From NCBI RefSeq assembly GCF_029263155.1, contig NZ_JAJCYB010000070.1, positions 1 to 64,000 on the forward strand: a stretch of 64,000 nt of DNA, in the 5' to 3' direction. The notes under the pieces are model-generated. The model worked only from the letters and a program-made list of their open reading frames with translations, was not told the origin of the DNA and searched no databases. The translations under genes and the position numbers were made by a program. Shown piece by piece: positions 36,158-62,864 of this stretch. Source of the stretch: Pseudonocardia sp. (GTDB lineage Bacteria; Actinomycetota; Actinomycetes; Mycobacteriales; Pseudonocardiaceae). Numbering within the stretch: position 1 is the first letter of the stretch; each line of letters begins with the position of its first letter.

Positions 36158-36165
36158 GGTGGCGC

Positions 36166-36780
36166 CTACACCATGCCCAGCAGCATGACGAGCATGGCCG
36201 CGTTCATCACGACGTGACCCACGACCGGCAGCTCGACGCCGGTCGCCCGCGCGGTCACCGCGACCGCGACCGCGCCCTCGGCGACCGGCGCCGCCGGCTC
36301 GGGGACGGTGCGGTGGGTCGCGATCCGGACGAGATCGGCGACGAACCAGGCGGCGAGGACCAGCGCGGCGAGGGTGACCAGCAGCCCCCCGGAGCCGCCG
36401 CCCGCCGCGGCGTGGTGCGCGTGCCCGGGATCGACCGGCCCGCCCGCCGCCGCGGCGTGGTCGTGTCCGCCGAGCAGCATGAACAGCATCGCCGCCGCCC
36501 CGGCGACGTGGCCGCCGGCCGTGCCCAGCAGGGTGCCGGCGCGCAGCACCTCGGCGCCGAACCAGGACCCGGACACGACGAACACCGCCACCCACAGCGG
36601 CGCCGGCACGGGGTCGGCGGCCGGTACGAACATCGCCGCCATGCCCAGGCCCATCGCCGCGTGGGACGCGGCGGCCGGCAACGGGCCGCGCCGCCCCGCG
36701 AGCAGCCACAGCCAACCGGCCCCGACGGTCATGCAGGCCAGCGCGAGAGCCACGTCCAACCAGGTCACGCCCAGTCCCAT
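36166..36780 (-). CDS. DUF5134 domain membrane protein
   Basis: 204 residues with about six transmembrane helices. A loop contains a histidine cluster (GGHDHAAAAGG and GHAHHAAAGG), and Met residues punctuate the helices (HAAMGLGMAAM, GHVVMNAAMLVMLLGM). Met/His-rich membrane proteins of this family occur beside copper genes in actinobacteria. GGAGAGTCGAC precedes the ATG. It is the first gene of a short operon with the 182-residue membrane protein and possibly the PepSY gene. Confidence 0.85.
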   Translation of the reverse strand: MGLGVTWLDVALALACMTVGAGWLWLLAGRRGPLPAAASHAAMGLGMAAMFVPAADPVPAPLWVAVFVVSGSWFGAEVLRAGTLLGTAGGHVAGAAAMLFMLLGGHDHAAAAGGPVDPGHAHHAAAGGGSGGLLVTLAALVLAAWFVADLVRIATHRTVPEPAAPVAEGAVAVAVTARATGVELPVVGHVVMNAAMLVMLLGMV

Positions 36781-36858
36781 GTCGACTCTCCGTCAGCCGT
36801 CGGGGCTTCCCTCGATCCGGGGAAGGGTAGGCACACTTCGTCGGCCCGAGCTATACGG

Positions 36859-39135
36859 TCACGGGGTAGGGGCACCGGAGAACCTCCGCAGGCGCAGGCT
36901 GTTGCCGACCACGAACACCGAGCTCAGCGCCATCGCCGCGCCGGCCAGCATCGGGTTGAGCAGGCCCGCGGCGGCCACGGGCAGCGCCGCCACGTTGTAG
37001 GCGAAGGCCCAGCCGAGGTTGCCCCGGATCGTCGCGTGTGTCCGGCGACACAGGCGCAGGGCGTCCACCGCCGCGGTCGGGTCCGACCGGACCAGCGTGA
37101 TGTCGGAGGCGTGCAGCGCGACGTCGGCCCCGCTGCCCATCGCGATCCCGACGTCGGCCTGCGCGAGCGCGGGCGCGTCGTTCACCCCGTCGCCGACCAG
37201 TGCGACGACGTGGCCGTGCTCCTGGAGCCTGCGGACGGCGTCGGCCTTGTCGGTGGGCAGCGCGTCGGCGACGACGGCGTCGATCCCGACCTGCGCGGCG
37301 ACCGACCGGGCCACCGCCACGCCGTCTCCGGTGAGCAGCACCGGGTCCAGCCCGAGGCGGCGCAGGCCGGCGACGGCCGCGGCCGCGGTGGGCCGCACCG
37401 TGTCGGTCACGGTGAACACCGCGCGGGCCCGGCCGTCCCAGGCCAGCGCGGCGACGCTCGCCCCGTCCTCCTCCGCCGCCGCCACCGCCGACGCCAGCTC
37501 GGGCGGCAGGCCGATCCCCCGCTCGGCCAGCAGCGCGACGCGGCCGATCAGCACGTCCCGCCCGCCGACGGATCCACGGGCCCCCAGCCCGCCCACCGCC
37601 ACCGGGTCGCCGACCTGCGGCAGGTCCCCCACCTGCTCGGCCGCATGGCCGTGCACGGCCCGGGCCACCGGATGGGCCGACGCGGACTCCAGGGCCCCGG
37701 CGACGGCGAGCACGTCGTCCCGGTCCTCCCCCGCGGCCACCGACACCCGGTCCACCCGCATCTCACCGCTGGTGAGGGTGCCGGTCTTGTCGAGCAGGAC
37801 CGTGTCGACGCGTCGCGCGGTCTCCAGCACGTCCGGGCCGGTGACGAGGATTCCCAGCTGGGCGCCCCGCCCGGTGCCGACGAGCAGGGCCGTCGGGGTG
37901 GCCAGCCCGAGGGCGCACGGGCAGGCGACGGTGAGCACGGCGACCGCGGCGCCGAGCGCGCCGACCTGCCCGGCCCCGGCGCCGAGCCAGAAGCCTCCTG
38001 CCGCGGCGGCCAGCACCAGCACCGCGGGCACGAACCAGGCGCAGATCCGGTCGGCGAGGCGGGCCACCGCGGCGGTGCCGGTCTGGGCCCGTTCGACCAG
38101 CGCCGCCATCTGGGCCACCTGCGTGTCGGCGCCCACCCGGGTGGCACACACGACGATCCGGCCGCCCACGTTGATCGTGCCGCCGGTCACCTCGTCGCCC
38201 GCCCCGACCTCCCGGGGCAGCGACTCGCCGGTGATCGGGCTGGTGTCCAGGGCCGACGCGCCGTCCTCGACGACGCCGTCGACGGCGACCCGCTCGCCCG
38301 GGCGCACCACGATCCGGTCGCCGACGGCGACCCGGTCGGCGGGCACCCGCTCCTCGCGCCCGTCGCGCAGCAGGGCCGCGTCGGCCGCCGCGAGGGCCAG
38401 CAGGCCCCGCAGCGCCGCACCCGACCGGCGGCGGGCGCGCGCCTCGGCATGGCGCCCGACCAGCACCAGCGTCGTCACCGTCGCCGCCACCTCCAGGTAC
38501 ACCGCTCCGGTGCCGTCGGACCAGACCGGCGCCGCGCCGAGCGCGTGGGTGTGGCCGGGGTAGCCGGCCGTGCCGAGGAACAGCGAGTACAGCGACCAGC
38601 CGAACGCCGCGAGGACCCCGACCGAGACCAGGGTGTCCATCGTGGTGGCGCCGTGGCGCAGGGTGGCCAGGGCCGCGCGGTGCAGCGGCAGGGCACCCCA
38701 GACCGCCACCGGGGCGGCGAGCGCGAGGCTCGCCCACTGCCAGTGCGTGAACTGCCACGCCGGGACCATCGCCAGCGCCACCACCGGGACCGTGAGCCCG
38801 GCGCAGACCCGCGCCCGGTCCCGCAGGGCGAGCAGCGCGGGATCCGGCGCCTCCTCGACCGCGGCGGCGGCCGGCTCGGCCGGCGCGGGCCGCTCGGCCG
38901 TGTAGCCCGCCTTCTCGATGACGGCGGCCAGGTCGTCGACGGTGACGGTGCCGGGGTGGTCGACCGCCACCCGGCCGGTGGCGTAGTTGACCTGCGCCTC
39001 GACGCCGCCCATGCGGCGCAGCACGCGCTCCACCCGCCGGGCACAGGACCCGCAGGTCATGCCACCGACCACGAGATCGGTCCGGGCCCGGGGCGCGGTG
39101 GCCGCAGCCGGGTCGAGGTCGGGCGCGGCGGTCAA
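36859..39135 (-). CDS. Copper-type P1B ATPase, first copy
   Basis: 758 residues. An N-terminal heavy-metal-associated domain has the CxxC in GGMTCGSCARR. Eight membrane helices, the GES loop (ITGESLPREV), the membrane metal site CPC (TVACPCALGLATP), the phosphorylated Asp (LLDKTGTLT) and the hinge GDGVNDAPALAQ are all present. CPC plus a CxxC domain indicates Cu(I) transport. The start is TTG at 39135, chosen because CCGGAGGGGCA precedes it and it overlaps the stop of a 67-residue upstream gene (TTGA), so translation is coupled. Direction is normally efflux, though some mycobacterial Ctp homologues work in copper loading or uptake. Confidence 0.93.
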   Translation of the reverse strand: MTAAPDLDPAAATAPRARTDLVVGGMTCGSCARRVERVLRRMGGVEAQVNYATGRVAVDHPGTVTVDDLAAVIEKAGYTAERPAPAEPAAAAVEEAPDPALLALRDRARVCAGLTVPVVALAMVPAWQFTHWQWASLALAAPVAVWGALPLHRAALATLRHGATTMDTLVSVGVLAAFGWSLYSLFLGTAGYPGHTHALGAAPVWSDGTGAVYLEVAATVTTLVLVGRHAEARARRRSGAALRGLLALAAADAALLRDGREERVPADRVAVGDRIVVRPGERVAVDGVVEDGASALDTSPITGESLPREVGAGDEVTGGTINVGGRIVVCATRVGADTQVAQMAALVERAQTGTAAVARLADRICAWFVPAVLVLAAAAGGFWLGAGAGQVGALGAAVAVLTVACPCALGLATPTALLVGTGRGAQLGILVTGPDVLETARRVDTVLLDKTGTLTSGEMRVDRVSVAAGEDRDDVLAVAGALESASAHPVARAVHGHAAEQVGDLPQVGDPVAVGGLGARGSVGGRDVLIGRVALLAERGIGLPPELASAVAAAEEDGASVAALAWDGRARAVFTVTDTVRPTAAAAVAGLRRLGLDPVLLTGDGVAVARSVAAQVGIDAVVADALPTDKADAVRRLQEHGHVVALVGDGVNDAPALAQADVGIAMGSGADVALHASDITLVRSDPTAAVDALRLCRRTHATIRGNLGWAFAYNVAALPVAAAGLLNPMLAGAAMALSSVFVVGNSLRLRRFSGAPTP

Positions 39136-39335
39136 TGCCCCTCCGGATGTGCGGGCCCGGCCGGCCCGAACACCGACGGTGCGGGCAGGTCGGGCACGGG
39201 CAGGGGCGGGTTGACCAGCCGGCCCGCGCCCCAGCCGCACACGGCGACGACGGCGAGCAGCGCCAGGAACGCACCCAGCCGCGCCGGCACGGCCAGGGGT
39301 CGCGGGCCGGTCGGTTCCGGCGAGGTGGCGGGCAC
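39132..39335 (-). CDS. 67-residue single-span membrane protein coupled to the P-type ATPase
   Basis: A small gene from GTG 39335 to a TGA that overlaps the TTG start of the ATPase. One transmembrane helix (LGAFLALLAVVAVCGWGAG, about 18-36) is followed by a Pro-rich extracytoplasmic tail that ends in HPEGH. The overlap argues strongly that it is a real gene and an ATPase partner, perhaps a metal-passing or regulatory subunit. The ribosome-binding site of the GTG is weak. Confidence 0.65.
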   Translation of the reverse strand: MPATSPEPTGPRPLAVPARLGAFLALLAVVAVCGWGAGRLVNPPLPVPDLPAPSVFGPAGPAHPEGH

Positions 39336-39557
39336 CCCTGGACCGTAGGGACACCGGCCCGGACGGGGTTGCCGGGCTGAGAGGCGCTCGCGACCTGCGG
39401 GCCGCCGGGTGCGCCGGGTGGGGCCCGGTTGGTCCACCCGGTGCAGCCGGATCGCCCGGACGGTCAGCGACGCTCTCAGGTACGACCGGGACGTGGGTGT
39501 GGCGGTCCTCTCGCGGGAGCGGGGAACCGCGCGGCCCCGGCCGGCGACCACTCGCGG
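39336..39557. promoter_or_regulatory. Divergent control region of the two copper ATPase operons
   Basis: A 222-bp spacer between the GTG of the small membrane protein and the GTG of the second ATPase. It must hold both promoters. No classical CsoR-type operator or clean -35/-10 pair is evident; GGTTGGTCCACC near 39428 and the inverted GCGCGGCCCCGGCCGGCG near 39529 are the most structured parts. Confidence 0.4.
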
Positions 39558-41822
39558 GTGAGCACCGGGACCCGGCAGGACGCGGCGGACCAGGACGGCA
39601 CGCCCCCGCAGGCGGCGGAGCTGCGCACCGTGGAGCTGGCCGTCGGCGGCATGACCTGCGCCGCGTGCGTCGGTCGGGTGGAGCGCAAGCTGGGCAGGCT
39701 CGACGGCGTGCTCGCGACGGTCAACCTGGCCACCGGCCGCGCGACCGTCAGCCACCCGTCCGGCACCCCGGTGTCCGCGCTGGTGGCGGCCGTCGAGAAG
39801 GCCGGGTACACCGCCCGTCCGGCGGGCGACGACACCCCCGGCGAGCGGTTCGACCACGGCGCGGTGGACGACCTGCGACGGCGCCTGGCCGTCGCGGTGC
39901 TGCTGTTCGTGCCCGTCGCCGACCTCTCGATCGCGCTGTCCCTGGTGCCCTCGCTGCGCTTCCCCTTCTGGCAGGCCGTGCTGGTGGCGCTGGCACTGCC
40001 GGTGGTGGTGTGGTCGGCGTGGCCGTTCCACCGGGCCGCGCTCGCCGGGCTGCGCCACCGCACCACGACCATGGACACGCTGGTGTCGCTGGGCATCCTC
40101 GCCGCGGCCGGGTGGTCGCTGTGGTCGATGGTCACCGCGGGCGGGGTGCCCGACACCGCGTCGGGATGGGACGCGGTGCTGCACCCCAGCGGCCCCCTGT
40201 ACCTGGAGGTCGCCGCCGGCATCACGACGTTCCAGCTGGCCGGGCGCTACTTCGAGGCCCGGGCCCGGCGGGCGGCCGGCAGGGCGATGCGGGCGCTGGG
40301 GAGGCTGCGCGTCGCCGAGGTGACGATCCTGCGCGAGCGGCCCGGTGCGGCGCCCGCCGCGCAGCGGGTGCCGCTGGTGCACCTGCGGGTGGGCGAGCGG
40401 TTCCTGGTGCGCCCCGGCGAGCGGATCGCCGCCGACGGCACGGTCGTCGACGGTGCGGCGGCGGTGGACACCAGCGCGATGACCGGGGAACCGGTGCCGG
40501 TGGAGGCCGCGGTCGGCGACGCGGTGACCGGCGGCACGATCGCCGTCGGCGGCGCGCTCACCGTCCGCGCGGACGCCGTCGGCGACGCGACGCGGCTCTC
40601 GCGGATGCTGCGCGCCGTCGAGCAGGCCCAGGTGGAGAAGTCGGCGGTGCAGCGGCTGGCCGACCGGATCTCCGCGGTGTTCGTGCCGGCCGTGCTGGTG
40701 CTCGCCGCCGCCACCCTCATCGGGTGGATGGTGGCCGGGGCCGGCACCGAGGACGCCGTGGTGCGCGCGGTCGCGGTGCTGGTCATCGCCTGCCCGTGCG
40801 CCCTCGGGCTGGCCACCCCCACTGCCCTGATGGTGGCCACCGGCCGCGGCGCCGAGCTCGGCGTCTTCGTCACCGGGTTCCGGGCGATGGAGGCCGTCCG
40901 CGCCGTCGACACCGTGGTGCTGGACAAGACCGGCACCCTGACCACCGCCCGGATGCGCGTGACCCGGGTGGCGACCGTGCCCGGCGGCCCCGACGCGGAC
41001 GCGCTGCTCGCCCTCGCCGCCGCGGTGGAGCACTCCTCCGAGCACCCGATCGCCGCCGCGATCGTCGAGGCCGCGGGCTCCCCCGACACGCGGGCCACCG
41101 GGTTCCGGGCGCTGGCCGGGCTGGGCGCGCGCGGGACCGTGGACGGGCGCGAGGTGCTGGTCGGGCGACCCTCCCTGTTCGACGACCTCGCCGTGCTCGA
41201 CGACGACCTCGTCGCCTGGGAGGCCGCGGGCGCCACCGTCGTCGCGGTCGGGATCGACGGGCGGGCGGCCGGGGCGCTGGCGCTGACCGATCCGGTGCGC
41301 GTCTCGGCGGCCGACGCGGTCGGACAGCTGCGCGGGATGGGCCTGTCGGTGGTGCTGCTCACCGGTGACGGCGCGGCCGCAGCCGGGGCGGTGGCGGCCG
41401 CGGTCGGGATCGACGAGGTGCACTCCGGGGCGCTGCCCGAGGACAAGGTCGCCCTCGTGCGCAGGCTGCGCGCGGCGGGCCGCACCGTCGCGATGGTCGG
41501 TGACGGGGTCAACGACGCCGCCGCGCTGAGCACCGCGGACCTGGGCATCGCGGTCGGCTCGGGCACCGACGTGGCCCTGGAGGCCGCCGACCTGGTCCTC
41601 GTCCGCGACGACCTCACCGTCCTTCCGGTGGCGGTCCGGCTCGCCCGCTCGACCGTCGCCACCGTGCGCGGCAACCTGGTCTGGGCGTTCGGCTACAACC
41701 TCGCCGCGGTGCCGCTGGCCGCGGCCGGGCTGCTCAACCCGCTGATCGCGGGCGCGGCGATGGCGATGTCGTCGCTGCTGGTGGTGTCGAACAGCCTGCG
41801 GCTGCGCCAGGCGGGACGCTAG
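39558..41822 (+). CDS. Copper-type P1B ATPase, second copy (CtpA/CtpB-like)
   Basis: 754 residues: N-terminal metal-binding domain with GGMTCAACVGRVER, the TGEP loop (MTGEPVPVEA), CPC in IACPCALGLATP, phosphorylation site LDKTGTLT, the SEHPIAAAI nucleotide-binding motif and GDGVNDAAALS. The CAAC domain and overall sequence are close to mycobacterial CtpA/CtpB/CtpV. Together with the SigC-like factor nearby this recalls the SigC-CtpB copper-acquisition link in M. tuberculosis. Its TAG shares the palindromic CTAG with the stop of the convergent CopD-CtaG gene. Confidence 0.93.
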   Translation: MSTGTRQDAADQDGTPPQAAELRTVELAVGGMTCAACVGRVERKLGRLDGVLATVNLATGRATVSHPSGTPVSALVAAVEKAGYTARPAGDDTPGERFDHGAVDDLRRRLAVAVLLFVPVADLSIALSLVPSLRFPFWQAVLVALALPVVVWSAWPFHRAALAGLRHRTTTMDTLVSLGILAAAGWSLWSMVTAGGVPDTASGWDAVLHPSGPLYLEVAAGITTFQLAGRYFEARARRAAGRAMRALGRLRVAEVTILRERPGAAPAAQRVPLVHLRVGERFLVRPGERIAADGTVVDGAAAVDTSAMTGEPVPVEAAVGDAVTGGTIAVGGALTVRADAVGDATRLSRMLRAVEQAQVEKSAVQRLADRISAVFVPAVLVLAAATLIGWMVAGAGTEDAVVRAVAVLVIACPCALGLATPTALMVATGRGAELGVFVTGFRAMEAVRAVDTVVLDKTGTLTTARMRVTRVATVPGGPDADALLALAAAVEHSSEHPIAAAIVEAAGSPDTRATGFRALAGLGARGTVDGREVLVGRPSLFDDLAVLDDDLVAWEAAGATVVAVGIDGRAAGALALTDPVRVSAADAVGQLRGMGLSVVLLTGDGAAAAGAVAAAVGIDEVHSGALPEDKVALVRRLRAAGRTVAMVGDGVNDAAALSTADLGIAVGSGTDVALEAADLVLVRDDLTVLPVAVRLARSTVATVRGNLVWAFGYNLAAVPLAAAGLLNPLIAGAAMAMSSLLVVSNSLRLRQAGR

Positions 41823-43903
41823 CCGCGTTCGGTCCCCGACAGCCGGGCCAGCATCGCGTTGTAGGCGGCGAGGTCGGCCTCGCCGTCGGCGTCTGCGCGG
41901 CGGTCGTGCCGGGCCGCCTCGCGGGCGTCGTCGCGTGACCAGCGGGTGAGCAGCACCAGCACCACGAGCAGCATCGGCAGCTCCCCCGTCGCCCACGCGA
42001 TGCCGCCGCCGACGCGCTGGTCGGCCAGCAGGTCCCCGGCCCATGGCAGGTCCAGCAACCGGTAGAACTCGCCGCCCAGCAGCGTCGCGGTACTCATCAG
42101 GGTGACGCCGAAGAAGGCGTGGAACGGCATCGCCGCGAGCAGCACGGCCAGCCGGCCCACGTGCGGCAGCCGCGACGGGGCGTGGTCCACCCCGATGATC
42201 GGCCAGAAGAACAGGTAGCCGACCAGCAGGAAGTGCAGGTTCATCAGCTGGTGGCCCCAGTGGTAGCGCAGCGCCACCTCGAACAGGTCGGTCAGGTAGA
42301 ACGCGAAGTTCGAGCCGGCGAACAGCGCCAGCACCGGCAGCGGATGGGTGAGCCGCGCCAGCACCGGCGAGGCCATCGCACCGACGATCCACTCGCGCAC
42401 CCCCGGCGGGCGCCCCGGCCCCGCCGGGCGCAGCGCGCGCAGCGCGAGCGTCACCGGGCCGCCCATCGCCAGCAGCACCGGTACCAGCATGTTCAGCGCC
42501 ATGTGGCTGATCATGTGGACGCTGAACACGGCGGGCGAGTAGCGCCCGACCCCCGACGAGGTCATCAGCAGCAGGAGCAGGCAGCCCGCGAGCCACGCCG
42601 CGGTCCGGCCCGGCGCCCACGCGTCACCGCGGCGGGCCAGGCGCCGCACGCCGAGCACGTAGGCCGCGGCCAGGGCGACCGCCGCCGTGCCGAACAGGGT
42701 GTTGAACCGCCAGTCCAGCACCAGCGCGCCGACCGACACCGGATCGGGCACCTGGTAGCCGATGAGCAGCTCGACCGGCGTGTCGGCGCGCTCGAGGAAC
42801 CGCGGCGGCACCCACCGCCCCGCCACCACCCCGAGCACGGTCGCCGCAAGGACCCCGGCCAGCGCCACCCCCGTCGCGGCCCGCGGCCTGCGGGGCCACA
42901 GCAGCGCCGCGGCGACGCCGACGACCAGGAGCGCCGCGAGCCGGGCGAGCACCGCGGCGTTCCACGGCGACCCCAGCAGCGGGCCCGACCCGCGCAGCAG
43001 CGCGAGCAGCACCAGCGTCGTGCCGGCGAGCACGGCCGCACCGACCACCAGCACCGGCGCGGCGCGGCGGCGCTCGGTGGGGCCGGGACCGCCCGGCTCG
43101 GCTCGCAGCGACACCACCACCCCGGTCACGACGGCGAGCGCGAGCGCGCCCAGCAGCTGGGCGTCGGCGCTCCAGTCGTGGGGCCCCGCGGTGGCGACCT
43201 GCCCGACCACCGCGGGCGGCAGCACCGCCGCCGCCGCGGCCGCCAGCAGGGCCGGCGTCGTACGCCACCGCAGCGCGATCAGGCCGCCGGCTCCCGCGAC
43301 CAGGAACCCGCCGCCCGCCAGCATCCAGGCCAGCGGTTCCTCCAGCGCGGCGGCCAGCTCCCACCAGCCGCTGCCCACGAGCGTGGGCACGGCCGACCCG
43401 GTCAGGTCGGACGCGACCGCGACGGCCAGCAGCAGCGAGCCCACCCCGGCCACCAGGCCGTACCCGCCCGCCCGGCGCACCGCCCGGTAGCCCGCGACGT
43501 CGAGCACCCCCGACGGCTGCGGGGCGGTGAGGAACGCCGCGTACAGCAACGATCCGACGGCCACCCCGCCGCTGAGCTCCACGACCGTCCGCAGCGCGGG
43601 GACCACGCCGCGGGCGAGCAGTCCGGGCACGGGGATACCGATGCGCGCGTACACCGCGGAGTCGAGCAGCGACAGGGCACCGGCGAGCAGCGCGCCGGCG
43701 AGCAGCACGCACAGCGCCACCACCGCCGACCCCGCGGCGGCGCCGCCGGTCGGTGGCCGCCGGCCCGCCCGCGGACGTCCCTCGGTGTCGATCGCCACCC
43801 CGAGCAGTCGCCGCCGGGACCGTCCCGGTTCCCGCGGACCGTGGCCCGACCGGGTGAAGGGCCGCAGCAGGCCGAGCCGCGCATGCTCCGACCGCCCGCG
43901 CAC
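41819..43903 (-). CDS. CopD-CtaG fusion membrane protein
   Basis: About 694 residues. The N-terminal half (about 55-370) has eight or nine helices of the CopD copper-resistance type. The C-terminal half (about 400-660) is a CtaG/caa3 assembly-factor domain with the His/Met-rich VHMISHMALNMLVPVLLAMG and YHWGHQLMNLHFLLVGY segments that bind copper. Such fusions occur in actinobacteria and are linked to copper delivery to cytochrome oxidase or copper import. The start may be ATG 43903 or GTG 43798; the first 35 residues are Arg-rich and unlike the rest. Confidence 0.9.
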   Translation of the reverse strand: MRGRSEHARLGLLRPFTRSGHGPREPGRSRRRLLGVAIDTEGRPRAGRRPPTGGAAAGSAVVALCVLLAGALLAGALSLLDSAVYARIGIPVPGLLARGVVPALRTVVELSGGVAVGSLLYAAFLTAPQPSGVLDVAGYRAVRRAGGYGLVAGVGSLLLAVAVASDLTGSAVPTLVGSGWWELAAALEEPLAWMLAGGGFLVAGAGGLIALRWRTTPALLAAAAAAVLPPAVVGQVATAGPHDWSADAQLLGALALAVVTGVVVSLRAEPGGPGPTERRRAAPVLVVGAAVLAGTTLVLLALLRGSGPLLGSPWNAAVLARLAALLVVGVAAALLWPRRPRAATGVALAGVLAATVLGVVAGRWVPPRFLERADTPVELLIGYQVPDPVSVGALVLDWRFNTLFGTAAVALAAAYVLGVRRLARRGDAWAPGRTAAWLAGCLLLLLMTSSGVGRYSPAVFSVHMISHMALNMLVPVLLAMGGPVTLALRALRPAGPGRPPGVREWIVGAMASPVLARLTHPLPVLALFAGSNFAFYLTDLFEVALRYHWGHQLMNLHFLLVGYLFFWPIIGVDHAPSRLPHVGRLAVLLAAMPFHAFFGVTLMSTATLLGGEFYRLLDLPWAGDLLADQRVGGGIAWATGELPMLLVVLVLLTRWSRDDAREAARHDRRADADGEADLAAYNAMLARLSGTERG

Positions 43904-54894: not shown

Positions 54895-56346
54895 TCAGGG
54901 TGCCGCGACCGGCGGGCCGGCGAGCACGGTCAGCACCACCCCGCCGAGGACGCCGAGGGCCACCACCACGGTTGCGCACGCGTAGGCGGCGCCCGCCGGC
55001 CAGCTCGCCCCAGGACGTCCGGCCGCAGACGCCTCGCCCACCGGCTCCCCGGCGGCGGGGCGGCGCATCGTGGGGGCGATCCAGCGCAGGTAGTAGAAGA
55101 GGCTGGCGACGGTGTTCACCACCGCGAGCACGGCCAGCCAGGCGAACCCGCCGTCCACCGCCGCGGTGAACACGGTGAGCTTGCCGACGAACACCGCCGT
55201 CGGTGGGGTGCCGACCAGCCCGAGCAGGCAGACCACGAGCGCGGCCACCAGCCGCGGTGCCCGGTGGACCGCGCCGCGGAAGTCGTCGAGGGTGCGGGCC
55301 CACGGCAGCGCCGCGACCACGGCGAACGCCCCGAGGTTCGCGACGGCGTAGGCGGCGAGGTAGAACAGCAGGGCCGGTTGCGCCAGGTCCGCGCGGCCCG
55401 CCACCGCCACGGCCATCAGCAGGTAGCCGACCTGGCTGATCGTCGAGTACCCGAGCAGGCGCTGCACCGAGCTCTGGAGGAACGCGGCCAGGTTGCCCAG
55501 CGTCATCGACGCGGCGGCGAGCACCGCGACCAGCAGCGGCCAGGCCACGACCTCGGGCGGGACGGCGACCACGAGCAGCCGGTACAGCGCGACCAGCCCG
55601 CCGACCTTCGGGATGGTCGTGACGACCGCGGCGACCGCCGCCGGGGTGCCGTCGGCGACGTCGGGCACCCAGAAGTGGCCCGGCACCGCCCCGATCTTGA
55701 ACGCGAGCCCGGCGAGCAGCGCCACCAGCCCGACCCCGACGGCCGCGGGCGGCGCGGCGGCCAGTCCGTCGCGCAGCGGGCCGTAGCCGGTGGCGGCGCC
55801 GACGCCGGAGAGGATCGTGACGCCCGCGAGCATCGCGACGCCGAGGAACGCGCCGGTGAGGTAGTACTTGAGCGCCGCCTCGGCGCCGAGGGGCCGGGCG
55901 TCCCACCCGGCGAGGGCGTAGAGCGGGATGCTCGCGAGCAGGAAGGCCGCGAACAGCAGCAGCAGGTCGTTCGCGCCGCCGAGCAGCATCGCGCCGAGTG
56001 CGCCGAGCTGCAGCAGCACGACGAACTCGGTCTCCCTGCGGTGCCCCGTGGTGGCGGGGACGGACAGGGCGAGGGCGAGCAGCACCGATCCGAGCACGAC
56101 CACCCGCGTCGCGTGGGTGGGTGTGTCGACGGCGAACCCGGTCCCGAACACGAGCTGGTCGGGCTGCCGCGCCGCGACCGCCGCCGCGACCAGCCCGCCG
56201 AGTGCCACCGTCGCGGCCAGCAGCCGCACGAGGTACTGGCGCCGCCGCGGCAGCCACGCCCCGAGCAGCAGCCCCACGACGGCGCCGCCGAGCAGCAGCA
56301 GCTCGGGCAGCAGCGCGCCGGGGTCGTGGGCCATCGCGCCGCTCAT
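54895..56346 (-). CDS. nuoN: Complex I-like subunit N (antiporter-type)
   Basis: 483 residues with 13-14 transmembrane helices of the Mrp-antiporter fold. Conserved parts include the lysine-bearing AALKYYLTGAFL, AGLAFKIGAVPGHFWVPDVADG and VGTPPTAVFVGKLTVF. The ATG overlaps the nuoM stop (ATGA, 56343-56346). It is the last gene of the nuo-like operon. Confidence 0.93.
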   Translation of the reverse strand: MSGAMAHDPGALLPELLLLGGAVVGLLLGAWLPRRRQYLVRLLAATVALGGLVAAAVAARQPDQLVFGTGFAVDTPTHATRVVVLGSVLLALALSVPATTGHRRETEFVVLLQLGALGAMLLGGANDLLLLFAAFLLASIPLYALAGWDARPLGAEAALKYYLTGAFLGVAMLAGVTILSGVGAATGYGPLRDGLAAAPPAAVGVGLVALLAGLAFKIGAVPGHFWVPDVADGTPAAVAAVVTTIPKVGGLVALYRLLVVAVPPEVVAWPLLVAVLAAASMTLGNLAAFLQSSVQRLLGYSTISQVGYLLMAVAVAGRADLAQPALLFYLAAYAVANLGAFAVVAALPWARTLDDFRGAVHRAPRLVAALVVCLLGLVGTPPTAVFVGKLTVFTAAVDGGFAWLAVLAVVNTVASLFYYLRWIAPTMRRPAAGEPVGEASAAGRPGASWPAGAAYACATVVVALGVLGGVVLTVLAGPPVAAP

Positions 56347-57845
56347 CGGCCCACGAGCTCCACCAGCGTCGCCGACGCGGGCTCGACGACGTCGAGCAGC
56401 ACCCGGGGCAGCAGCCCGATCAGGGTGGCCAGGGCCAGCAGGGGGACGATCGAGAGGGTCTCGCGCGGCCGCAGGTCGAGGAAGCCGTCCCCGGCGGCCT
56501 GCGGGATGCGCGGCGGCCCGAGGAACAGCTGCTGCAGCGCGCGCAGGAACAGCGCGGCGGTGAGCACGATGCCGGTGACCGCGATGACGGTCGCGACCGG
56601 CGCGGCGGCCAGCGCGCCGGTGAAGATCTGGAACTCGGCGATGAAGCCGGAGAAGCCGGGCAGCCCGAGCGAGGCGAACGCGGCGACGGCGAAGACCCCG
56701 GCGAAGGCCGGGGCCGTCGCGGCGAGACCGGAGTAGGCGCCCATCCGGTAGGTGTGGCCGCGCTCGTGCAGCACCCCGGCGAGCAGGAACAGCGCACCGG
56801 TGATCAGCCCGTGGCTGACCATCTGGGTGAGCGCGCCGGTCGTGGCGAGCCGGCGGGCCTGCTCGTCGGTGCCGGCCAGCACCCCGGCGGCACCGACGCC
56901 GAGCAGCACGTAGCCCATGTGGTTGACCGAGGTGTAGGCGATCATCCGCTTGAGGTCGGTCTGGGCCAGCGCGACCAGCGCGCCGTAGACCACCGAGACG
57001 ACGCCGACCACGATCGCGACCACGGCGTACTGCCGCCACGTGTCGGGCAGGATCGGCATCGCGATCCGCACGAAACCGTAGGTGCCCATCTTCAGCAGCA
57101 CCCCGGCCAGGATCGCCGACCCCGCCGCGGGGGCCTCGGTGTGCGCCGGGGGCAGCCAGGTGTGGAACGGCACGGTCGGGGTCTTCACCGCGAGCCCGAC
57201 GCCGATCGCGAGCAGCGTCAGCGCGGCGTAGGTACCACCGCCGGCCAGCGGGTCGGCGGCGGTCAGCTCGACGATGTCGAAGGTGCGGGGCTCGGCGGCG
57301 AGGGAGAGCAGGATGAAGCCGAGCAGCAGCGCGAGTGACCCCAGGAACGTGTAGAGGAAGAACTTCAGCGCCGCGGCGCGCGCCCGCTCGCCGTGCCCCC
57401 ACCCGGCGATGAGGAAGTACATGAACACGATCGACAGGTCGAAGAACAGGAAGAACAGGATCAGGTCCAGCGCGGCGAACAGGCCGAGGCAGACCGTCTG
57501 CAGCGCCAGGAACAGCACCGCGTACGCCTTGGGCGCGCGTTGCTCGCGCAGCGAGTACACCGCCGCGGCCAGGAACAGCACCGCGGTGAGCGCCACCAGC
57601 GGCAGCGACAGGCCGTCGACGCCGACGTGGTAGGAGATCCCCGCGCCGGGGATCCACGGCACCCGCTGCTCGAACTGGAACCCCCCGCCGGGCACGAAGC
57701 CGATCCACGCGGCGAGCACCAGGGCCAGGTCCAGCGCGGCGACGGCGACGAAGGACCCGGCGAACACGCGCCGCGGCACGGACGCCGGGACCAGCGAGAG
57801 CACCGCGGCGGCCAGGGCGGGCAGGAAGACGATCAGTGAGAGCAC
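56343..57845 (-). CDS. nuoM: Complex I-like subunit M (antiporter-type)
   Basis: 500 residues, 14 helices. Proton-path residues are in AAALKFFLYTFLGS, AVKTPTVPFHTWLPPAHTEAP, QTDLKRMIAYTSVNHMGYV and MVSHGLITGALFLLAG. The sequence is a normal NuoM, less diverged than the NuoA, NuoH and NuoL of the same operon. It starts with GTG 57845, 7 bp after nuoL. Confidence 0.95.
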   Translation of the reverse strand: MLSLIVFLPALAAAVLSLVPASVPRRVFAGSFVAVAALDLALVLAAWIGFVPGGGFQFEQRVPWIPGAGISYHVGVDGLSLPLVALTAVLFLAAAVYSLREQRAPKAYAVLFLALQTVCLGLFAALDLILFFLFFDLSIVFMYFLIAGWGHGERARAAALKFFLYTFLGSLALLLGFILLSLAAEPRTFDIVELTAADPLAGGGTYAALTLLAIGVGLAVKTPTVPFHTWLPPAHTEAPAAGSAILAGVLLKMGTYGFVRIAMPILPDTWRQYAVVAIVVGVVSVVYGALVALAQTDLKRMIAYTSVNHMGYVLLGVGAAGVLAGTDEQARRLATTGALTQMVSHGLITGALFLLAGVLHERGHTYRMGAYSGLAATAPAFAGVFAVAAFASLGLPGFSGFIAEFQIFTGALAAAPVATVIAVTGIVLTAALFLRALQQLFLGPPRIPQAAGDGFLDLRPRETLSIVPLLALATLIGLLPRVLLDVVEPASATLVELVGR

Positions 57846-57852
57846 GGGGTCC

Positions 57853-59727
57853 CTACCTCAGGACGATCACGGTCAGGGCCAGCACGGCGAGCACCGCCGC
57901 GGCCTGGGCGTAGTACTGGTGGACCTGCCCGGTCTGCGGGCGGCGCGCCAGCCCACCGAGCGCCCGCGCTCCCCCCGCCACCGCCGCGACGACGCCGTCG
58001 ACGGCCCGCTCCCCGCGCCGGTCCAGCGCGGCCGCGGCGGCGTCGGCCGACCGGGCGGTGGAGCCGACCGCCCGGTCCAGCACCCCGTCGTCGGCGGCGG
58101 CCAGCGCCCGCGCCACCCGGCGGGTCGCGCGCGGCACCGCGGTCACCGCCCGGTCGAGCATGTCGTCGTCGAAGCGGGCCAGCGCGGCGGCGAGCGCGAG
58201 GACCGGGCGGACCAGCACGGCCCGGGCCACGCGCTCCAGACCGAGCCAGGACGCCAGGATGGCGGGCGGCGCGACCCGCGCAGCGATCCGCAGGGTGAGC
58301 GCGGCCGCCGCGACGGCGAGCACCCCGGACACCACCGCCTCCCACGCCGCCGGTGGCGGCGCCGACAGCGCTCCCGGGACGAGCCCGGGCAGCAGGCCCA
58401 GCCCGGCCGCGAGCCCGGCCAGTGCCACCAGCGGGACCCGCATGGCGGCCGTGACCCGCCCGGTGGGCCGGGCGGTCGTCGCCGCCGGCTGCCAGACGTA
58501 CCGGACGGCCTTCGCGCTGTAGACCGCCGACACGGCCGCCGCCGCCAGCCCCACCGCATACAGCGCGGGGCTGCGGGCCAGTGCGGCGGCCAGTACGAGG
58601 TCCTTCGTGAACCACAGCGACAGCGGCGGCAGCCCGGCCAGCGACGCCGCGCCGACGGTGAACGCGACGCCGACGACCGGGTGCCGCCGCGCCGCGCCGC
58701 GCAGCCCGTCGAGCTGCTCGGTGCCCAGCGCCACCAACCATGCCCCGGCGGCGAGGAACAGCAGGCTCTTGGTGGCCGCGTGCGCCACGAGCTGCCACGC
58801 CCCGCCGGCCACCGCGCCGACCCCGGCGGCCAGCACGACGAACCCGAGCTGGGCGGCGGTCGAGGCGGCGAGCAGCTGCTTGAGGTCGGTCTGGGCGGCC
58901 GCGACCAGCCCGAGCAGCAGCGCGGTCGCCGCGCCGGCCCAGGCCGTGGTGGCCGCCGCCCAGCCGGTCACCTCGAGCAGCGGCGCCGTGCGCAGCAGCA
59001 GGTAGGCCCCGGCCGCGACCATCGCCGCGGAGTGCAGCAGCGCCGACACCGGGCTGGGGCCGTCCATCGCCCGGGAGAGCCAGAAGCCCAACGGCAGCTG
59101 CGCGGACTTGCCCAGCGCCGCCACCAGCAGCCCGGCCGCGACGACGTCTCTCCACGGCGCCGCGGCGGCGGGCAGGTCGGCCAGCGCGAGGGTGCCGATC
59201 CCCCCGGCGAGCGCGGCGCCCGCGGCCAGGTACAGGCCGAGGTCGGCGGCCCGGGTGGTGAGGAACGCGGTGTGCGCGCTGCGGACCCGGCCGGGGTCGC
59301 GCCAGGCGTACCCGATCAGCGCCCAGCTCATGGCCCCCATCACCTCCCACGCCATGAGCAGCACGACCAGTGTCGTCGCGGTGACGGTCACCAGCATCGC
59401 GCCGGCGAACAGCAGCACGAACCCCGCGAAGCGTGCCGTCCGCAGCTCGGGCTCGGCCGCGGCGAACACGAGGACGGCGACGGTCGCGGCCGTCACCGCC
59501 ACGACCATCAGGGCCGAGAGCGCGTCCACCGCGAGCCCGGCGCGGATACCGGCGAGCAGCGGGGCGTCGACGGCGGGCCGTACCACCGCGGCGGCCACCG
59601 CCAGAGCGGCCACCGCGACGGCCACCGCGACACCGAGCGGGGCGGCGACCCGGTCGGCCCGCCGGCCCGCGACGGCGATCAGCGCGCCCGCGAACGTCGG
59701 CAGCGCCACCAGCGACCACAGCAGCAC
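57853..59727 (-). CDS. nuoL: Complex I-like subunit L (antiporter-type with C-terminal helix)
   Basis: 624 residues. The antiporter core keeps the key lysines in LGKSAQLPLGFWLSRAMDGP, AATKSLLFLAAGA and LWFTKDL, and the glutamate in LLMAWEVMGAMSWALIGY. After helix 14 comes an amphipathic region (about 495-590) with two DDxxLDRAV repeats, corresponding to the lateral helix HL, then the final RRPQTGQVHQYY helix. There is no DUF2309 partner gene, so it is not a DAB/Mps-type bicarbonate pump. The start is GTG 59727. Confidence 0.93.
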   Translation of the reverse strand: MLLWSLVALPTFAGALIAVAGRRADRVAAPLGVAVAVAVAALAVAAAVVRPAVDAPLLAGIRAGLAVDALSALMVVAVTAATVAVLVFAAAEPELRTARFAGFVLLFAGAMLVTVTATTLVVLLMAWEVMGAMSWALIGYAWRDPGRVRSAHTAFLTTRAADLGLYLAAGAALAGGIGTLALADLPAAAAPWRDVVAAGLLVAALGKSAQLPLGFWLSRAMDGPSPVSALLHSAAMVAAGAYLLLRTAPLLEVTGWAAATTAWAGAATALLLGLVAAAQTDLKQLLAASTAAQLGFVVLAAGVGAVAGGAWQLVAHAATKSLLFLAAGAWLVALGTEQLDGLRGAARRHPVVGVAFTVGAASLAGLPPLSLWFTKDLVLAAALARSPALYAVGLAAAAVSAVYSAKAVRYVWQPAATTARPTGRVTAAMRVPLVALAGLAAGLGLLPGLVPGALSAPPPAAWEAVVSGVLAVAAAALTLRIAARVAPPAILASWLGLERVARAVLVRPVLALAAALARFDDDMLDRAVTAVPRATRRVARALAAADDGVLDRAVGSTARSADAAAAALDRRGERAVDGVVAAVAGGARALGGLARRPQTGQVHQYYAQAAAVLAVLALTVIVLR

Positions 59728-59730
59728 CGC

Positions 59731-60036
59731 TCAGCCCCGCAGGTCGGCGGCGTCGTCGGTCATGTCCACCTGCCGGGCCCGGTACAGCGCGGTCACCACG
59801 GCGAACCCGACGGCCATCTCGACCGCCATCCCGGTGATCACCACGACGATCAGCACCTGGCCGCCGGTGCCGCCCGGCGCGACGAAGTACCAGAACGCGG
59901 CCGCCGCCACGATGATCCCGCCCAGCATCAACTCCAGGCCCATCATCAGCATCACCACCGACTGCTGGGACAGCGCCCCGTACAGCCCGATGCACAGCAG
60001 GGCCGCCGCGACCAGCAGGTACAGCTGCAGGGTCAT
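59731..60036 (-). CDS. nuoK: Complex I-like subunit K
   Basis: 101 residues, three helices, the normal NuoK size. The two membrane glutamates of the E-channel are kept (MMGLELMLGG and TGMAVEMAVGFAVV). The ATG overlaps the nuoJ stop (ATGA, 60033-60036). Confidence 0.95.
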   Translation of the reverse strand: MTLQLYLLVAAALLCIGLYGALSQQSVVMLMMGLELMLGGIIVAAAAFWYFVAPGGTGGQVLIVVVITGMAVEMAVGFAVVTALYRARQVDMTDDAADLRG

Positions 60037-60593
60037 CGGCCCACTCCCCCACCGGCGGGGTCGTCGGCCGGGCCCCGCAGGTCGTCGCCGAACCGGTCGT
60101 AGCGGCCGCGGCCGGTGGAGAGCACCACCGTCGCGACGATGGTCGCGAACAGGGTGACACCGAGCGTCATCATGGTGAGCATCTGCGGGCCCATCAGCGC
60201 CTCGCCGAGCGCGAAGGTGGGGTCCGCCGGGGCGGTCCCGCGCCGCTGCGGCCAGTCGACCAGCAGGATCCCCGTCGACAGCACGACGAACGTGCCCACC
60301 GCGATCGACATCGAGCCGGCCTTGTTGTGGAACATCGCCATCGGCATCAGCCCGGCCGGGTTCATCATGTACATGATCATGAACACCGCCATCACGACCA
60401 TCTCGATGATCATCATCAGCAGGATGACGACACCGAGGTAGCCGAGCCCCACCAGCAGCACCAGCCCGGCCACGGCGAGGAACGACCCGAGCAGCGCGAA
60501 GGTGACCCGGGCCATCGAGTCCAACCGGAACACCAGGAACCCCAGCCCCACGGCGGCGACCGCCAGCACCCAGAACAGCACGGTCTGCACCAT
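60033..60593 (-). CDS. nuoJ: Complex I-like subunit J
   Basis: 186 residues, five helices. LGYLGVVILLMMIIEMVVMAV corresponds to the pi-bulge helix TM3, and the chain is unusually Met-rich (MIMYMMNPAGLMPMAMFHNK). It starts directly at the nuoH stop (TAGATG on the minus strand). Confidence 0.93.
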   Translation of the reverse strand: MVQTVLFWVLAVAAVGLGFLVFRLDSMARVTFALLGSFLAVAGLVLLVGLGYLGVVILLMMIIEMVVMAVFMIMYMMNPAGLMPMAMFHNKAGSMSIAVGTFVVLSTGILLVDWPQRRGTAPADPTFALGEALMGPQMLTMMTLGVTLFATIVATVVLSTGRGRYDRFGDDLRGPADDPAGGGVGR

Positions 60594-61535
60594 CTACAGC
60601 CCTCCCTGCAGGACGACGATCGCCACGACCAGCGCCTGGGCGACCGTGAGCGGGACCAGCACCACCCAGGAGAACTCGGTGAACCGGTCCATGCGGACCG
60701 CCGGGATCCGGTGTCGCAGCCAGCCCAGCACGGCGAGCACCGCGGCGGTCTTGACGGCCACCCAGGCCCAGGCGGGCAGCAGCGGGCCGTGTCCGCCGCC
60801 CAGGAACAGCGGCACCGCCATCGCCGCCGCGACGACCAGCAGCAGCCACCGGCCGCCGAGCAGCAGCAGCCGGTCCACCCCCGACAGCTCGGCCGCGGCG
60901 CCCCCGGCCAGGTCGTGCCCGGTCGGCGCGTCGAAGGGGCCCCAGAACGCCATCGCGGCGGTCGAGAGCAGGAAGGCCACGAACGCGACGGGCATCAGCG
61001 CGACGAACCACAGGTCGCGCTGGGCCTCGACGATCGAGGTCACCCGGAGGCTCTGCGCGGCCAGCGCGGCGGTGGTGATCGCGAACATGTGCGGCAGCTC
61101 GTAGGCCAGTCCCTGCACGACGAACCGGTAGCCACCGACCAGCGACAGCGCGCTGTTCGCGCTCCAGCCGACCATCCACACCGCCGCCCAGGCCACCACC
61201 TCCATGGCGTTGAACCAGACGACCCCCACCGCCAGGTCGGCGACGGGCCGCTGCCCCAGCGGCAGTACCGCGGCGGCCAGCAGGGCCGCGACCGGAAGCG
61301 CGGCACCGCCGATCCGCCCGAGGACCCGGTCCGCGGCGACGGTGTGGCGGCGCTGCTCCACCAGCAGGCGTGCGCCCCCGAGCAGCGGCGCGCCGAGCGC
61401 GCGCCCGGCGCCGCGCGGGCCGCCCGCGGCGCGGGCGAGCAGGGCGGTGTCCCACGCGACGACGGCCCAGACGGCCACGGCGAGCAGCCCGGGCAGCACC
61501 AGCGCCGCCCACCACGGCAGGGAGGTGTCAGCCAT
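60594..61535 (-). CDS. nuoH: Complex I-like subunit H, diverged at the quinone-facing loop
   Basis: 313 residues, eight helices. NSALSLVGGYRFVVQGLAYELPHMF retains the YE of the canonical SYEIP motif. The strongly conserved loop that normally reads PFDLPEAESEL is here PFDAPTGHDLAGG, losing the glutamates that lead protons from the quinone chamber. The overall fold and length are kept. Its start overlaps the end of the NuoB/D-like gene by 8 bp. Confidence 0.9.
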   Translation of the reverse strand: MADTSLPWWAALVLPGLLAVAVWAVVAWDTALLARAAGGPRGAGRALGAPLLGGARLLVEQRRHTVAADRVLGRIGGAALPVAALLAAAVLPLGQRPVADLAVGVVWFNAMEVVAWAAVWMVGWSANSALSLVGGYRFVVQGLAYELPHMFAITTAALAAQSLRVTSIVEAQRDLWFVALMPVAFVAFLLSTAAMAFWGPFDAPTGHDLAGGAAAELSGVDRLLLLGGRWLLLVVAAAMAVPLFLGGGHGPLLPAWAWVAVKTAAVLAVLGWLRHRIPAVRMDRFTEFSWVVLVPLTVAQALVVAIVVLQGGL

Positions 61536-62523
61536 GGGGGGGCTCCCCGTCCCGGGCGTCCGCGACGTCGGCCCCGTCGGTGTCGGGGTCCAGCGCCGCG
61601 ACGACCAGCCGGGCCGCGGCGAGCTCGGCGCCGACCACGAGACCCGCCAGCTCCGCGGGCGCCGGGCGGTGCACCGGTGGCGCCGCGTCGCCCGTCGTCG
61701 CGACCGTGCCCAGCGCCGCCCCGATCGCGGCTACGCGCCGGTCCAGCACCGTGGCGACGTCGACCTGCCCGGCCGCCGTCCCGCGCACCGACCACCTCAA
61801 TGTCCGCGACCGCCGCACCCGGCGCAGCAGCACCGCCGCCGGCCCGGCGATCTCGCGGGCCGGCGTGCCGGCCAGCAGCTCGTCGCGCAGCCGCCGGGCC
61901 CGCGCGGCCGCGGCGGGCCATCCGGCGACCCCCAGGAACCGGGCCAGCGCGTCGAGCTCACGCGCGGCTGGCTGGTCGCGCTCCGGCCAGAACGCGGTCC
62001 CGCGTCCGGCGTCGAGCAGCTCGGCCGCGGCGTCGCCCACCACGTCGCCGTGCAACCTCACCCGCAGCACCAGGCCGGCGGGCCAGTCCGGCAGCACCGG
62101 GCCCAGCGGCACGTGCAGCCGGTCCAGGGCCAGCCCGTCGCGGTCCTCCCCCACATCGGCCATCCCCGGTTCCCCCGGCTCCGGCCGGTCGTGCCCGGCC
62201 CTGCGCTGGTGGTCGCGGTCGCCCAGCAGGCGGGCCGCGGCGTCGAGGACCTGCCCGGCGGCAGCGGGCGAGGGGACGTCGGCCCGGGCCCGTGGGACCG
62301 GCATCCGGGCGAGGACGTCGCGGACCACCGCGGCCATGGCCGGGCCGGTGGACCCCGCGACGGCGAGGACGTCGGCGTCCGCCGGGCCGGACGCGACCGG
62401 CCACCCCCGCCGCACCAGCTCGCGCTCGACCGCCAGCCGGGACGCCGTCCCGCCCACCGTCGGCACCACGAGCACCCGCGGCCTGCGCACGGCGGCGCGC
62501 AGCAGGCGCGCGGTCAGGTCCAC
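61528..62523 (-). CDS. Cysteine-free NuoB-NuoD-like fusion protein
   Basis: 331 residues, soluble, no transmembrane segment and not a single cysteine. Residues about 15-85 resemble NuoB: VLVVPTVGG, then GPADADVLAVAGSTGPAM and VLARMPVPRA, equivalent to the PRQADVLIVAGT and MPEPK blocks, but all four N2-cluster cysteines are absent. Residues about 135-175 (LHVPLGPVLPDWPAGLVLRV, then LHGDVV) resemble the start of NuoD (GPQHPxxHGVLRL, LDGE); the HRGxEK quinone-site segment is missing. The GTG overlaps the nuoA stop by 10 bp. I infer a structural adaptor where redox subunits used to dock; no catalytic role is evident. Confidence 0.7.
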   Translation of the reverse strand: MDLTARLLRAAVRRPRVLVVPTVGGTASRLAVERELVRRGWPVASGPADADVLAVAGSTGPAMAAVVRDVLARMPVPRARADVPSPAAAGQVLDAAARLLGDRDHQRRAGHDRPEPGEPGMADVGEDRDGLALDRLHVPLGPVLPDWPAGLVLRVRLHGDVVGDAAAELLDAGRGTAFWPERDQPAARELDALARFLGVAGWPAAAARARRLRDELLAGTPAREIAGPAAVLLRRVRRSRTLRWSVRGTAAGQVDVATVLDRRVAAIGAALGTVATTGDAAPPVHRPAPAELAGLVVGAELAAARLVVAALDPDTDGADVADARDGEPPHG

Positions 62524-62864
62524 CGGAAGGCCCCCTCCCGCCAGGCGTAGAGGACCCCGGCGAGCAGGATCGCCAGGAACAGGAACATCTCGATGACCGC
62601 CGGCGCGCCGACCTCGGACACGACGAGCGTCCACGGGTACATGAACAGCATCTCCATGTCGAAGGCCAGGAAGACCATCGCCACCGGGTACCACCGCACG
62701 TGGAACCGGGAGAACGCGTGCTCCACCGGCGGCAGGCCACCGGAGTGCGGCGCGACCGGCTCCCCCGGCCCGGCCACCGCCAGCAGCCGGGACGCGACGT
62801 GGCCGAGCAGCACCAGTGCCACACCGGCCCCGAACAGCACCGACATCGGGACGAGCACGGCCAT
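62514..62864 (-). CDS. nuoA: Complex I-like subunit A, lacking the conserved ECG loop
   Basis: 116 residues, three helices. RFHVRWYPVAMVFLAFDMEMLFMYPW is the canonical second helix with the conserved Asp-Glu pair (key residues FDME and YPW). The preceding loop, normally YECG with the Cys that marks the active/deactive switch, reads PHSGGLPP. GGAGGACCG precedes ATG 62864, the first gene of the operon. Confidence 0.9.
   Translation of the reverse strand: MAVLVPMSVLFGAGVALVLLGHVASRLLAVAGPGEPVAPHSGGLPPVEHAFSRFHVRWYPVAMVFLAFDMEMLFMYPWTLVVSEVGAPAVIEMFLFLAILLAGVLYAWREGAFRWT

Follow-up and report, generated by a model that had tools for sequence, protein, structure and literature searches.

Gene content and organization of the operon

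The stretch of DNA analyzed here, called the window, comprises 64,000 nucleotides of a Pseudonocardia sp. genome (contig NZ_JAJCYB010000070.1, positions 1 to 64,000). On its minus strand, at positions 54895 to 62864, lie eight intact open reading frames (ORFs) in the order nuoA-g2-nuoH-nuoJ-nuoK-nuoL-nuoM-nuoN. The first, nuoA2 (62514 to 62864), encodes a NuoA/ND3-like protein of 116 amino acids, with NuoA as the best NCBIfam match (E = 3.7e-21). The second, g2 (61528 to 62523), starts with GTG and encodes a cofactor-free NuoB-NuoD fusion of 331 amino acids, identified by a profile, a fold search, and a far relative. It is followed by nuoH2 (60594 to 61535; NuoH/ND1-like, 313 amino acids, with the PEAE and KED motifs gone), nuoJ2 (60033 to 60593; NuoJ/ND6-like, 186 amino acids), and nuoK2 (59731 to 60036; NuoK-like, 101 amino acids, with two membrane glutamates retained). 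The last three genes encode antiporter-like proteins. NuoL2 (57853 to 59727; 624 amino acids) retains the glutamate, lysine, and histidine motifs of transmembrane helices (TM) 5, 7, and 8, NuoM2 (56343 to 57845; 500 amino acids) has aspartate in place of the TM5 glutamate, and NuoN2 (54895 to 56346; 483 amino acids) has lost the TM5 glutamate and retains the TM7 and TM8 lysines. A reading of the DNA made from its letters alone (the sequence-only reading) had proposed that all seven membrane subunits are encoded, and the best NCBIfam matches are indeed A, H, J, K, L, M, and N. Among the NCBIfam rows shown, only NuoM (TIGR01972, 492 bits; cut-off, 263.8) and NuoK (57.3 bits; cut-off, 57) reach the family cut-off. 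The subunits are therefore divergent, as their scores are mostly under the curated cut-offs.

The same reading had described the operon as closed by start-stop overlaps. This is true of four junctions, nuoA/g2 (10 bases), g2/nuoH (8 bases), nuoJ/nuoK (4 bases), and nuoM/nuoN (4 bases); nuoH and nuoJ directly abut, and gaps of 3 and 7 bases separate nuoK from nuoL and nuoL from nuoM, respectively.

A cofactor-free NuoB-NuoD fusion

No Pfam family matched the window g2. The N-terminal half is NuoB-like: the g2 profile found the NuoB chain 2fug_6 as its best match among solved structures (E = 7.5e-6) and matched the NuoB of its own genome (E = 7.9e-7). The C-terminal half looks NuoD-like. This assignment rests on a far relative, the g2 of locus L234, which passes the Pfam cut-off for Complex1_49kDa (PF00346, NuoD; E = 5.7e-20) as well as that for the heavy-metal-binding domain (HMBD; E = 1.3e-13) and matches NuoB weakly (E = 0.044). 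The g2 alignment itself matched one canonical NuoD weakly (E = 0.038). The assignment is supported by a fold search with an AlphaFold2 model of g2 built from 76 relatives (pLDDT, 91.1; pTM, 0.89). The best 50 of 448 PDB matches, taken at E values up to 10, were all structures of the complex I family, with a best E value of 1.9e-3 and none under 1e-3. The matches listed include complex I, NDH, MBH, MBS, and formate hydrogenlyase, and the chains that could be placed are of the NuoB or NuoD type. The second gene was thus rightly called B/D-like, and the fusion was present in all complete loci read.

The window g2 contains no cysteine, and in the alignment of 76 rows no column had cysteine in more than 25 rows. 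This alignment holds fewer sequences than were at hand, and the g2 of L047, which has unknown bases and a poor start, was excluded. Cluster N2 is absent, since g2 lacks cysteine. The positions aligned with the quinone motif HPSTHG are not histidine in the window g2, and a loose form of the motif occurred in 0 of 18, 0 of 16, and 6 of 87 g2 sequences, the 6 probably lying within histidine-rich linkers. The operon had been described as lacking any redox module. An iron-sulfur path is indeed missing; a peripheral subunit is nevertheless present in the form of this fusion.

Residues kept and lost in the membrane arm

A pattern search for the NuoH motifs PEAE and KED found them in none of 97 NuoH2 sequences. 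The lysine and histidine residues of the proton channels in NuoL, NuoM, and NuoN are mostly retained by motif count. NuoL has GKxAQ and LLHSA in 94 of 94 sequences, NuoM has VKTP in 83 of 94, with the TM5 glutamate replaced by aspartate in 83 of 94, and NuoN has FKxGxVP in 87 of 95. TM5 of NuoN reads LLA(S/G)xP in 87 of 95 sequences and has the canonical glutamate pattern in 1. The two membrane glutamates of NuoK are retained in 92 and 95 of 97 sequences.

TM3 of canonical NuoJ carries VYxGA, and YTGA or YVGA was seen in 20 of 25 canonical-type loci, the other five being misread in frame. The NuoJ of the operon has MMxxEM at this place, with M61 at the tyrosine and E64 at the alanine of YxGA, followed by methionines at steps of three to four and then MxMxH. 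In the window, this stripe (MMxxEMxxMx3Mx3M...MxMxH, residues M60 to H89) is encoded at 60327 to 60416 on the minus strand, at the place of the VYxGAV gate in the alignment. Ten stripe positions, including eight methionines, one histidine, and the glutamate, were invariant in all 104 distinct segments (130 sequences), which comprise those of the named loci described below and 18, 7, and 26 other sequences found by g2, by NuoJ tblastn, and by profile, respectively, where the best matches were taken. This invariance is partly built in, because the named loci were chosen by a NuoJ motif pattern. The methionines would be expected to lie on one face of the helix.

Further candidate metal ligands occur in g2. 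Most actinobacterial relatives have a linker rich in His, Met, Asp, and Gly between the two halves (16 of 18 have eight or more histidines in the whole of g2), and relatives of family f56 have an HMBD-type CPMHPE motif, found in 8 of the 16 far g2 sequences; the 16 include the g2 of L228 and L230, which are misread in frame. Three proteobacterial g2 sequences have no histidine-rich run, and their NuoJ ends in a histidine-rich tail. Residues of metal-binding type are thus found in the NuoJ stripe and the HMBD of L234, where binding is predicted from sequence.

Distribution and conservation

Within the class, g2 was matched in 21 of 296 genomes. The complete eight-gene order was present in 17 of the 20 loci found by g2, at 35 to 75% identity; the three without the operon were L058, L059, and L060. 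Among 84,980 species genomes, a scan found 428 NuoJ relatives, of which the best 80, chosen by two peptide patterns (one being the NuoJ motif itself), are the named loci. All eight genes were found in 74 of these and every gap was under 150 bases in 72, L131 and L135 having one longer gap each. Those short of eight genes were L074, L082, L121, L124, and L133, which lie at contig ends, and L079. The last, from Actinopolyspora biskrensis, is a reduced copy with no nuoL or nuoM match, and this species has a full copy (L106) besides. The 10-base overlap of nuoA and g2 recurred in 17 of 18 loci and in 71 of 74 named loci, where the start nearest the expected place was chosen but such a start had to exist.

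The recurrence of this eight-gene order in 17 further loci puts the arrangement far beyond chance. No flanking gene cluster was common to more than 3 of 18 loci, so the eight-gene set looks self-contained. A decayed remnant, which the sequence-only reading had named as a case that would overturn it, is ruled out: none of the eight frames is broken, and loci of 35 to 75% identity share the order. In the phylum as a whole, a NuoJ profile matched 59 of 396 genomes, the weaker of which may be canonical NuoJ, and all 30 loci that were read carry the diagnostic NuoJ motif. The plasmid database PLSDB gave 18 matching records, including Roseivivax, Acuticoccus, and Halomonas plasmids (alpha- and gammaproteobacteria). 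In the plasmid annotations, the genes are named as NADH-quinone oxidoreductase subunits and g2 mostly as a hypothetical protein. On one plasmid, from Pseudarthrobacter defluvii (L154, 9263 to 10425), an IS3 element lies between the annotated start of g2 and nuoH and apparently interrupts g2.

Redox subunits and canonical complex I

NuoC, NuoI, NuoE, NuoF, and NuoG had been noted as missing from the operon and its surroundings. We recognized no gene resembling any of them between 28 and 78.5 kb of the contig, where the genes were inspected by eye and a few by Pfam. A separate canonical nuo operon, for which a search had been recommended, lies on contig C12 of the same genome. It holds the only NuoD and NuoC genes, together with NuoB, A, H, and J to N; NuoE, F, G, and I were searched around the operon only and not genome-wide. 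Statements of absence for this genome alone are soft because the bin has 5.98% contamination. The one-contig genomes G166 and G030, which are among the 18 carrier genomes, agree in having NuoD and NuoC elsewhere.

NuoD and NuoC were present elsewhere in all 18 carrier genomes tested and beside the module in none, so the opposing case, redox genes that serve only this complex, found no support from NuoD or NuoC. In 10 of the 18 there was a single NuoD and a single NuoC, and hence no NuoD or NuoC dedicated to the operon was found there. Eight genomes (G277, G257, G243, G030, G028, G208, G261, and G089) have an extra NuoD-family gene and a second NuoC and may therefore encode further complex I-like sets in addition to canonical complex I and the module.

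Two further antiporter-family genes on C21 of the Pseudonocardia genome probably represent an Mrp system. Two more NuoB-family matches, on contigs C47 and C2 (L065 and L067), resemble small subunits of [NiFe] hydrogenases in the ORFs read, one being followed by an ORF resembling a large subunit; this organism may be able to oxidize hydrogen.

Copper genes near the operon

Around the 80 named loci, which extend up to 10 kb on each side of nuoJ, the commonest neighbor clusters were CopA-like (31), DUF305 (28), CopZ-like (26), and CsoR (21). These labels were assigned by reading, and examples of DUF305 and CsoR were confirmed by Pfam. It was in this larger set that the copper signal first emerged. 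By tblastn, CopA, CopZ, or CsoR was found in 39 of the 80 loci and at least one of six copper markers in 50. Multicopper oxidase genes were present in 13. In whole genomes, 9 of 18, spanning six families, had CsoR or DUF305 no more than 15 kb from the operon, against an expected 0.67; this expectation assumes even placement and rounded genome sizes and ignores kinship (5 of the 18 genomes belong to one genus), and the two markers were picked after they had been sighted in the named loci. The same markers were within 15 kb of the canonical nuo genes in 0 of 18 genomes and of a second NuoD cluster in 0 of 8. In the far family f56 of the same phylum, the operon had CopA, CsoR, and CopZ beside it in all nine loci examined, from eight genomes; among seven other far loci, one had all three markers, one had CopA, one had a weak CopA match, and four had none.

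Fifteen of the 18 plasmid copies were read, Mycobacterium avium H14, H16, and H18 being left out, and 12 of the 15 had metal marker genes within 12 to 16 kb. Eight of these (Arthrobacter FB24, P. alni, Halomonas, two Roseivivax, Acuticoccus, Curtobacterium, and M. paragordonae) point to copper by gene name or by an annotated multicopper oxidase, CueR, or CsoR. CueR is on the Roseivivax and Acuticoccus plasmids, and CopB, CopC, and CopD genes are on that of Halomonas. The P. autotrophica plasmid has a CsoR-type regulator, an HMA protein, a metal ATPase, and DUF305; the M. avium and M. intracellulare plasmids (L160 and L161) have a heavy-metal P-type ATPase and an HMA protein, with the metal unstated, and the Ornithinimicrobium plasmid has DUF305 alone. 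Two plasmids of one Roseivivax marinus strain (L151 and L159) carry near-identical operons with cueR, copA, a copZ-like gene, and a multicopper oxidase gene, which suggests that the island was duplicated recently. Across the family, copper regulators and transporters lie near the operon more often than chance would predict; the window has only an island 11 to 21 kb away.

CsoR-type palindromes upstream of nuoA

We searched for a palindrome that we take to be the CsoR operator pattern. In 26 of 93 loci it occurred in the 400 bases preceding nuoA, compared to 6 of 501 control genes. L052 and L096 very likely represent the same locus, which makes the count of distinct loci 25 of 92. The palindrome was not found in 762 kb of operon bodies. 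Seven of the 26 loci have no CopA, CopZ, or CsoR within 3 kb upstream, and three, two of which are very likely one locus, have none of five copper markers. A search for CueR-type operators gave 1 of 104 loci and no signal.

Proposed function and alternatives

The gene set is probably a copper-handling ion transporter and not a respiratory enzyme. The sequence-only reading had suggested a non-redox input and had left the energy source and the physiological role open. A non-redox input is probable because a full ion-translocating arm is encoded without an iron-sulfur path, and g2 has no cysteine. As for the energy source and role, the copper context, the copper-type operators, and the metal-binding features point to a metal ion. 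We give about an even chance to the proposal that this redox-free member of the complex I superfamily would act as an Mrp-like Cu(I)/H+ antiporter, driven by the proton motive force and backing up CopA during copper stress. Its more specific form falls just short of that: Cu(I), as a soft-metal input, would pass through the methionine stripe at the NuoJ pi-gate in a manner coupled to proton flow, with g2 as a metal-loading head. Both draw on the Met/Glu site in NuoJ and the retained antiporter channel residues. In such a cycle, cytoplasmic Cu(I) would be captured by g2 or the NuoJ tail and handed along the stripe in TM3 to a Glu/Met site near the place of the exported-cation site of Mrp. It would then be released outside while protons enter via NuoL, NuoM, and NuoN. 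The direction, the stoichiometry, and the passage of copper itself are matters that we infer.

Work on related complexes bears on the location of the stripe. In complex I, TM3 of NuoJ gates the central axis, and a pi-bulge with a key tyrosine switches the proton path between open and closed (PMC10212512). At the place of Tyr59 of complex I NuoJ, Mrp has the essential Glu706, which lies near the bound cation, and proton entry is proposed to drive Na+ out (PMC7419157).

Several observations weigh against copper transport by the module. In 19 of the 26 loci with the palindrome, CopA, CopZ, or CsoR lies within 3 kb upstream as well, and therefore the palindrome may serve those genes; it was absent from all 11 far loci and from the region upstream of the window nuoA. 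Nor is copper linkage universal: 30 of the 80 named loci have none of the six markers, no CsoR or DUF305 gene lies within 15 kb in 9 of 18 genomes, the Gordonia, Rhodococcus, and Pseudarthrobacter plasmids (3 of 15 copies) have no marker genes, and four of the seven far loci outside f56 have no marker and one has a weak match only. In the window, unrelated genes separate nuoN from the copper island at 36 to 44 kb, a distance of 11 to 19 kb, and neither CsoR nor DUF305 was found on the contig. The sample is also uneven, the named loci being largely Streptomyces and Pseudonocardia and 6 of the 18 plasmid matches Mycobacterium. In the proteins, the NuoN TM5 glutamate, partner of the channel lysine, is lost, and the NuoJ glutamate is three residues past the Mrp-like position. 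The window g2 has six histidines and no histidine-rich linker. The strongest argument against a uniform linker role is that the window has neither this linker nor a histidine-rich NuoJ tail. Finally, copper context is as compatible with import, sensing, or a helper role as it is with export.

A related possibility is that the module is an Mrp-like Na+/H+ or K+/H+ antiporter within a copper-stress kit, restoring pH or ions while copper itself does not pass. The NuoL, NuoM, NuoN, and NuoK homologues largely retain their channel residues, a glutamate has been gained in NuoJ near the place of Glu706 at the Mrp cation site (PMC7419157), and potassium channel genes lie near two plasmid copies. Such an antiporter would, however, have no need for eight invariant methionines and a histidine in NuoJ or for histidine-rich or HMBD linkers in g2, and the operon includes NuoH and has no gene for MrpE, F, or G, so that we regard this explanation as unlikely. 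In complex I, the helix corresponding to that of the stripe gates the central axis (PMC10212512), and homology would place the metal-binding linker in the cytoplasm. Copper bound to g2 or NuoJ might open or shut a proton flow, as a signal or to lower the proton motive force. An uncoupled proton leak would be costly and eight subunits are much for a sensor, which makes a copper-gated channel or sensor quite unlikely.

Reading the copper context as redox chemistry is very improbable. In that case, bound Cu(I)/Cu(II) would be an electron carrier whose oxidation pumps ions, as was suggested by the authors who found a cassette of Marinobacter atlanticus to be co-expressed with copper genes (PMC8233155). 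The multicopper oxidase genes at 13 of the 80 named loci would fit. The quinone-site motifs of NuoH and NuoD are gone, however, and no second redox center was seen. Methionine and histidine ligands favor Cu(I) without turnover, and this also counts against a redox drive. The least credible alternative, to which we assign hardly any probability, is that the module is an alternative membrane arm borrowing the redox arm of canonical complex I in the same cell. NuoD and NuoC are available elsewhere in 18 of 18 carrier genomes, but the NuoB/NuoD place is already filled by g2, none of the 97 NuoH sequences has the PEAE motif, and the copper linkage is left unexplained.

Relation to known systems

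The module is a member of the complex I superfamily that fails defining features of both complex I proper and Mrp. Like the 14- and 11-subunit complexes I, it has seven membrane subunits, remnants of NuoB and NuoD, and mostly retained antiporter lysine motifs. Unlike these, its operon lacks NuoC, I, E, F, and G, NuoB and NuoD are fused, shortened, and without N2 ligands, NuoH has no PEAE or KED, and MMxxEM replaces the YxGA gate of NuoJ. With Mrp it shares the absence of redox chemistry and the NuoL/M/N-, NuoK-, and NuoJ-like parts, and in Mrp a carboxylate in the NuoJ-like helix is essential (PMC7419157). In contrast to Mrp, it has NuoA, NuoH, the NuoB-NuoD fusion, and a methionine-lined NuoJ helix, and its operon is without MrpE, F, and G and encodes no additional membrane proteins. 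We consider that the module would work most like Mrp. The g2 fold search also returned chains G and E of formate hydrogenlyase and chain J of MBH, a likeness to group 4 [NiFe] hydrogenases, although g2 has no conserved cysteine ligands. The copper efflux system CusCBA would have in common with the module the use of the proton motive force to expel Cu(I); the proteins are unrelated.

Among the papers checked in the open-licence part of PubMed Central, a single forerunner describing such a cassette was found. Eddie et al. (2021; PMC8233155) reported nuoADHJKL and a hypothetical gene, co-expressed in a copper-resistance cluster of Marinobacter atlanticus, and suggested copper redox reactions as its possible drive. 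As it appears in the passages seen of that paper, the cassette is without nuoM and nuoN and has NuoD, unlike the module; likened by this description only, it is probably of the same family. Those passages mention no family, NuoB-NuoD fusion, or NuoJ stripe. Our searches of this open-licence literature turned up no account of the family or how far it has spread, nor of the fusion, the stripe, the link to HMBD, or the operator evidence.

A central question about complex I, still open, is how the head drives the long membrane arm. In a natural relative with the arm and without the cofactors, coupling is separated from redox chemistry and becomes testable. The module has seemingly exchanged the quinone for a metal ion; if true, it would be a natural complex I with a new input and the old pump, and its drive would be a third one for this machine, neither electron transfer nor Na+/K+. 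It would also constitute a large proton-coupled copper system on bacterial chromosomes and plasmids. The findings suggest that many genes annotated as NADH-quinone oxidoreductase subunits are not respiratory.

Copper-related genes in the window

The region at 32491 to 43723 contains two divergent CopA-type ATPases, DUF5134, and PepSY-domain and CtaG-domain membrane proteins. The copper P1B-ATPases are encoded at 36859 to 39135 on the minus strand (TIGR01511, 480 bits; cut-off, 397) and at 39558 to 41822 on the plus strand (TIGR01511, 481.8 bits), and the CtaG-domain protein is encoded at 41819 to 43723 on the minus strand (PF09678, E = 2.2e-86). A sigma factor gene and an apparent zinc-finger anti-sigma gene lie near this island. 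The DUF5134 gene is at 36166 to 36780 on the minus strand (PF17197, E = 4.6e-18), and the M. paragordonae operon likewise has an annotated DUF5134 gene nearby.

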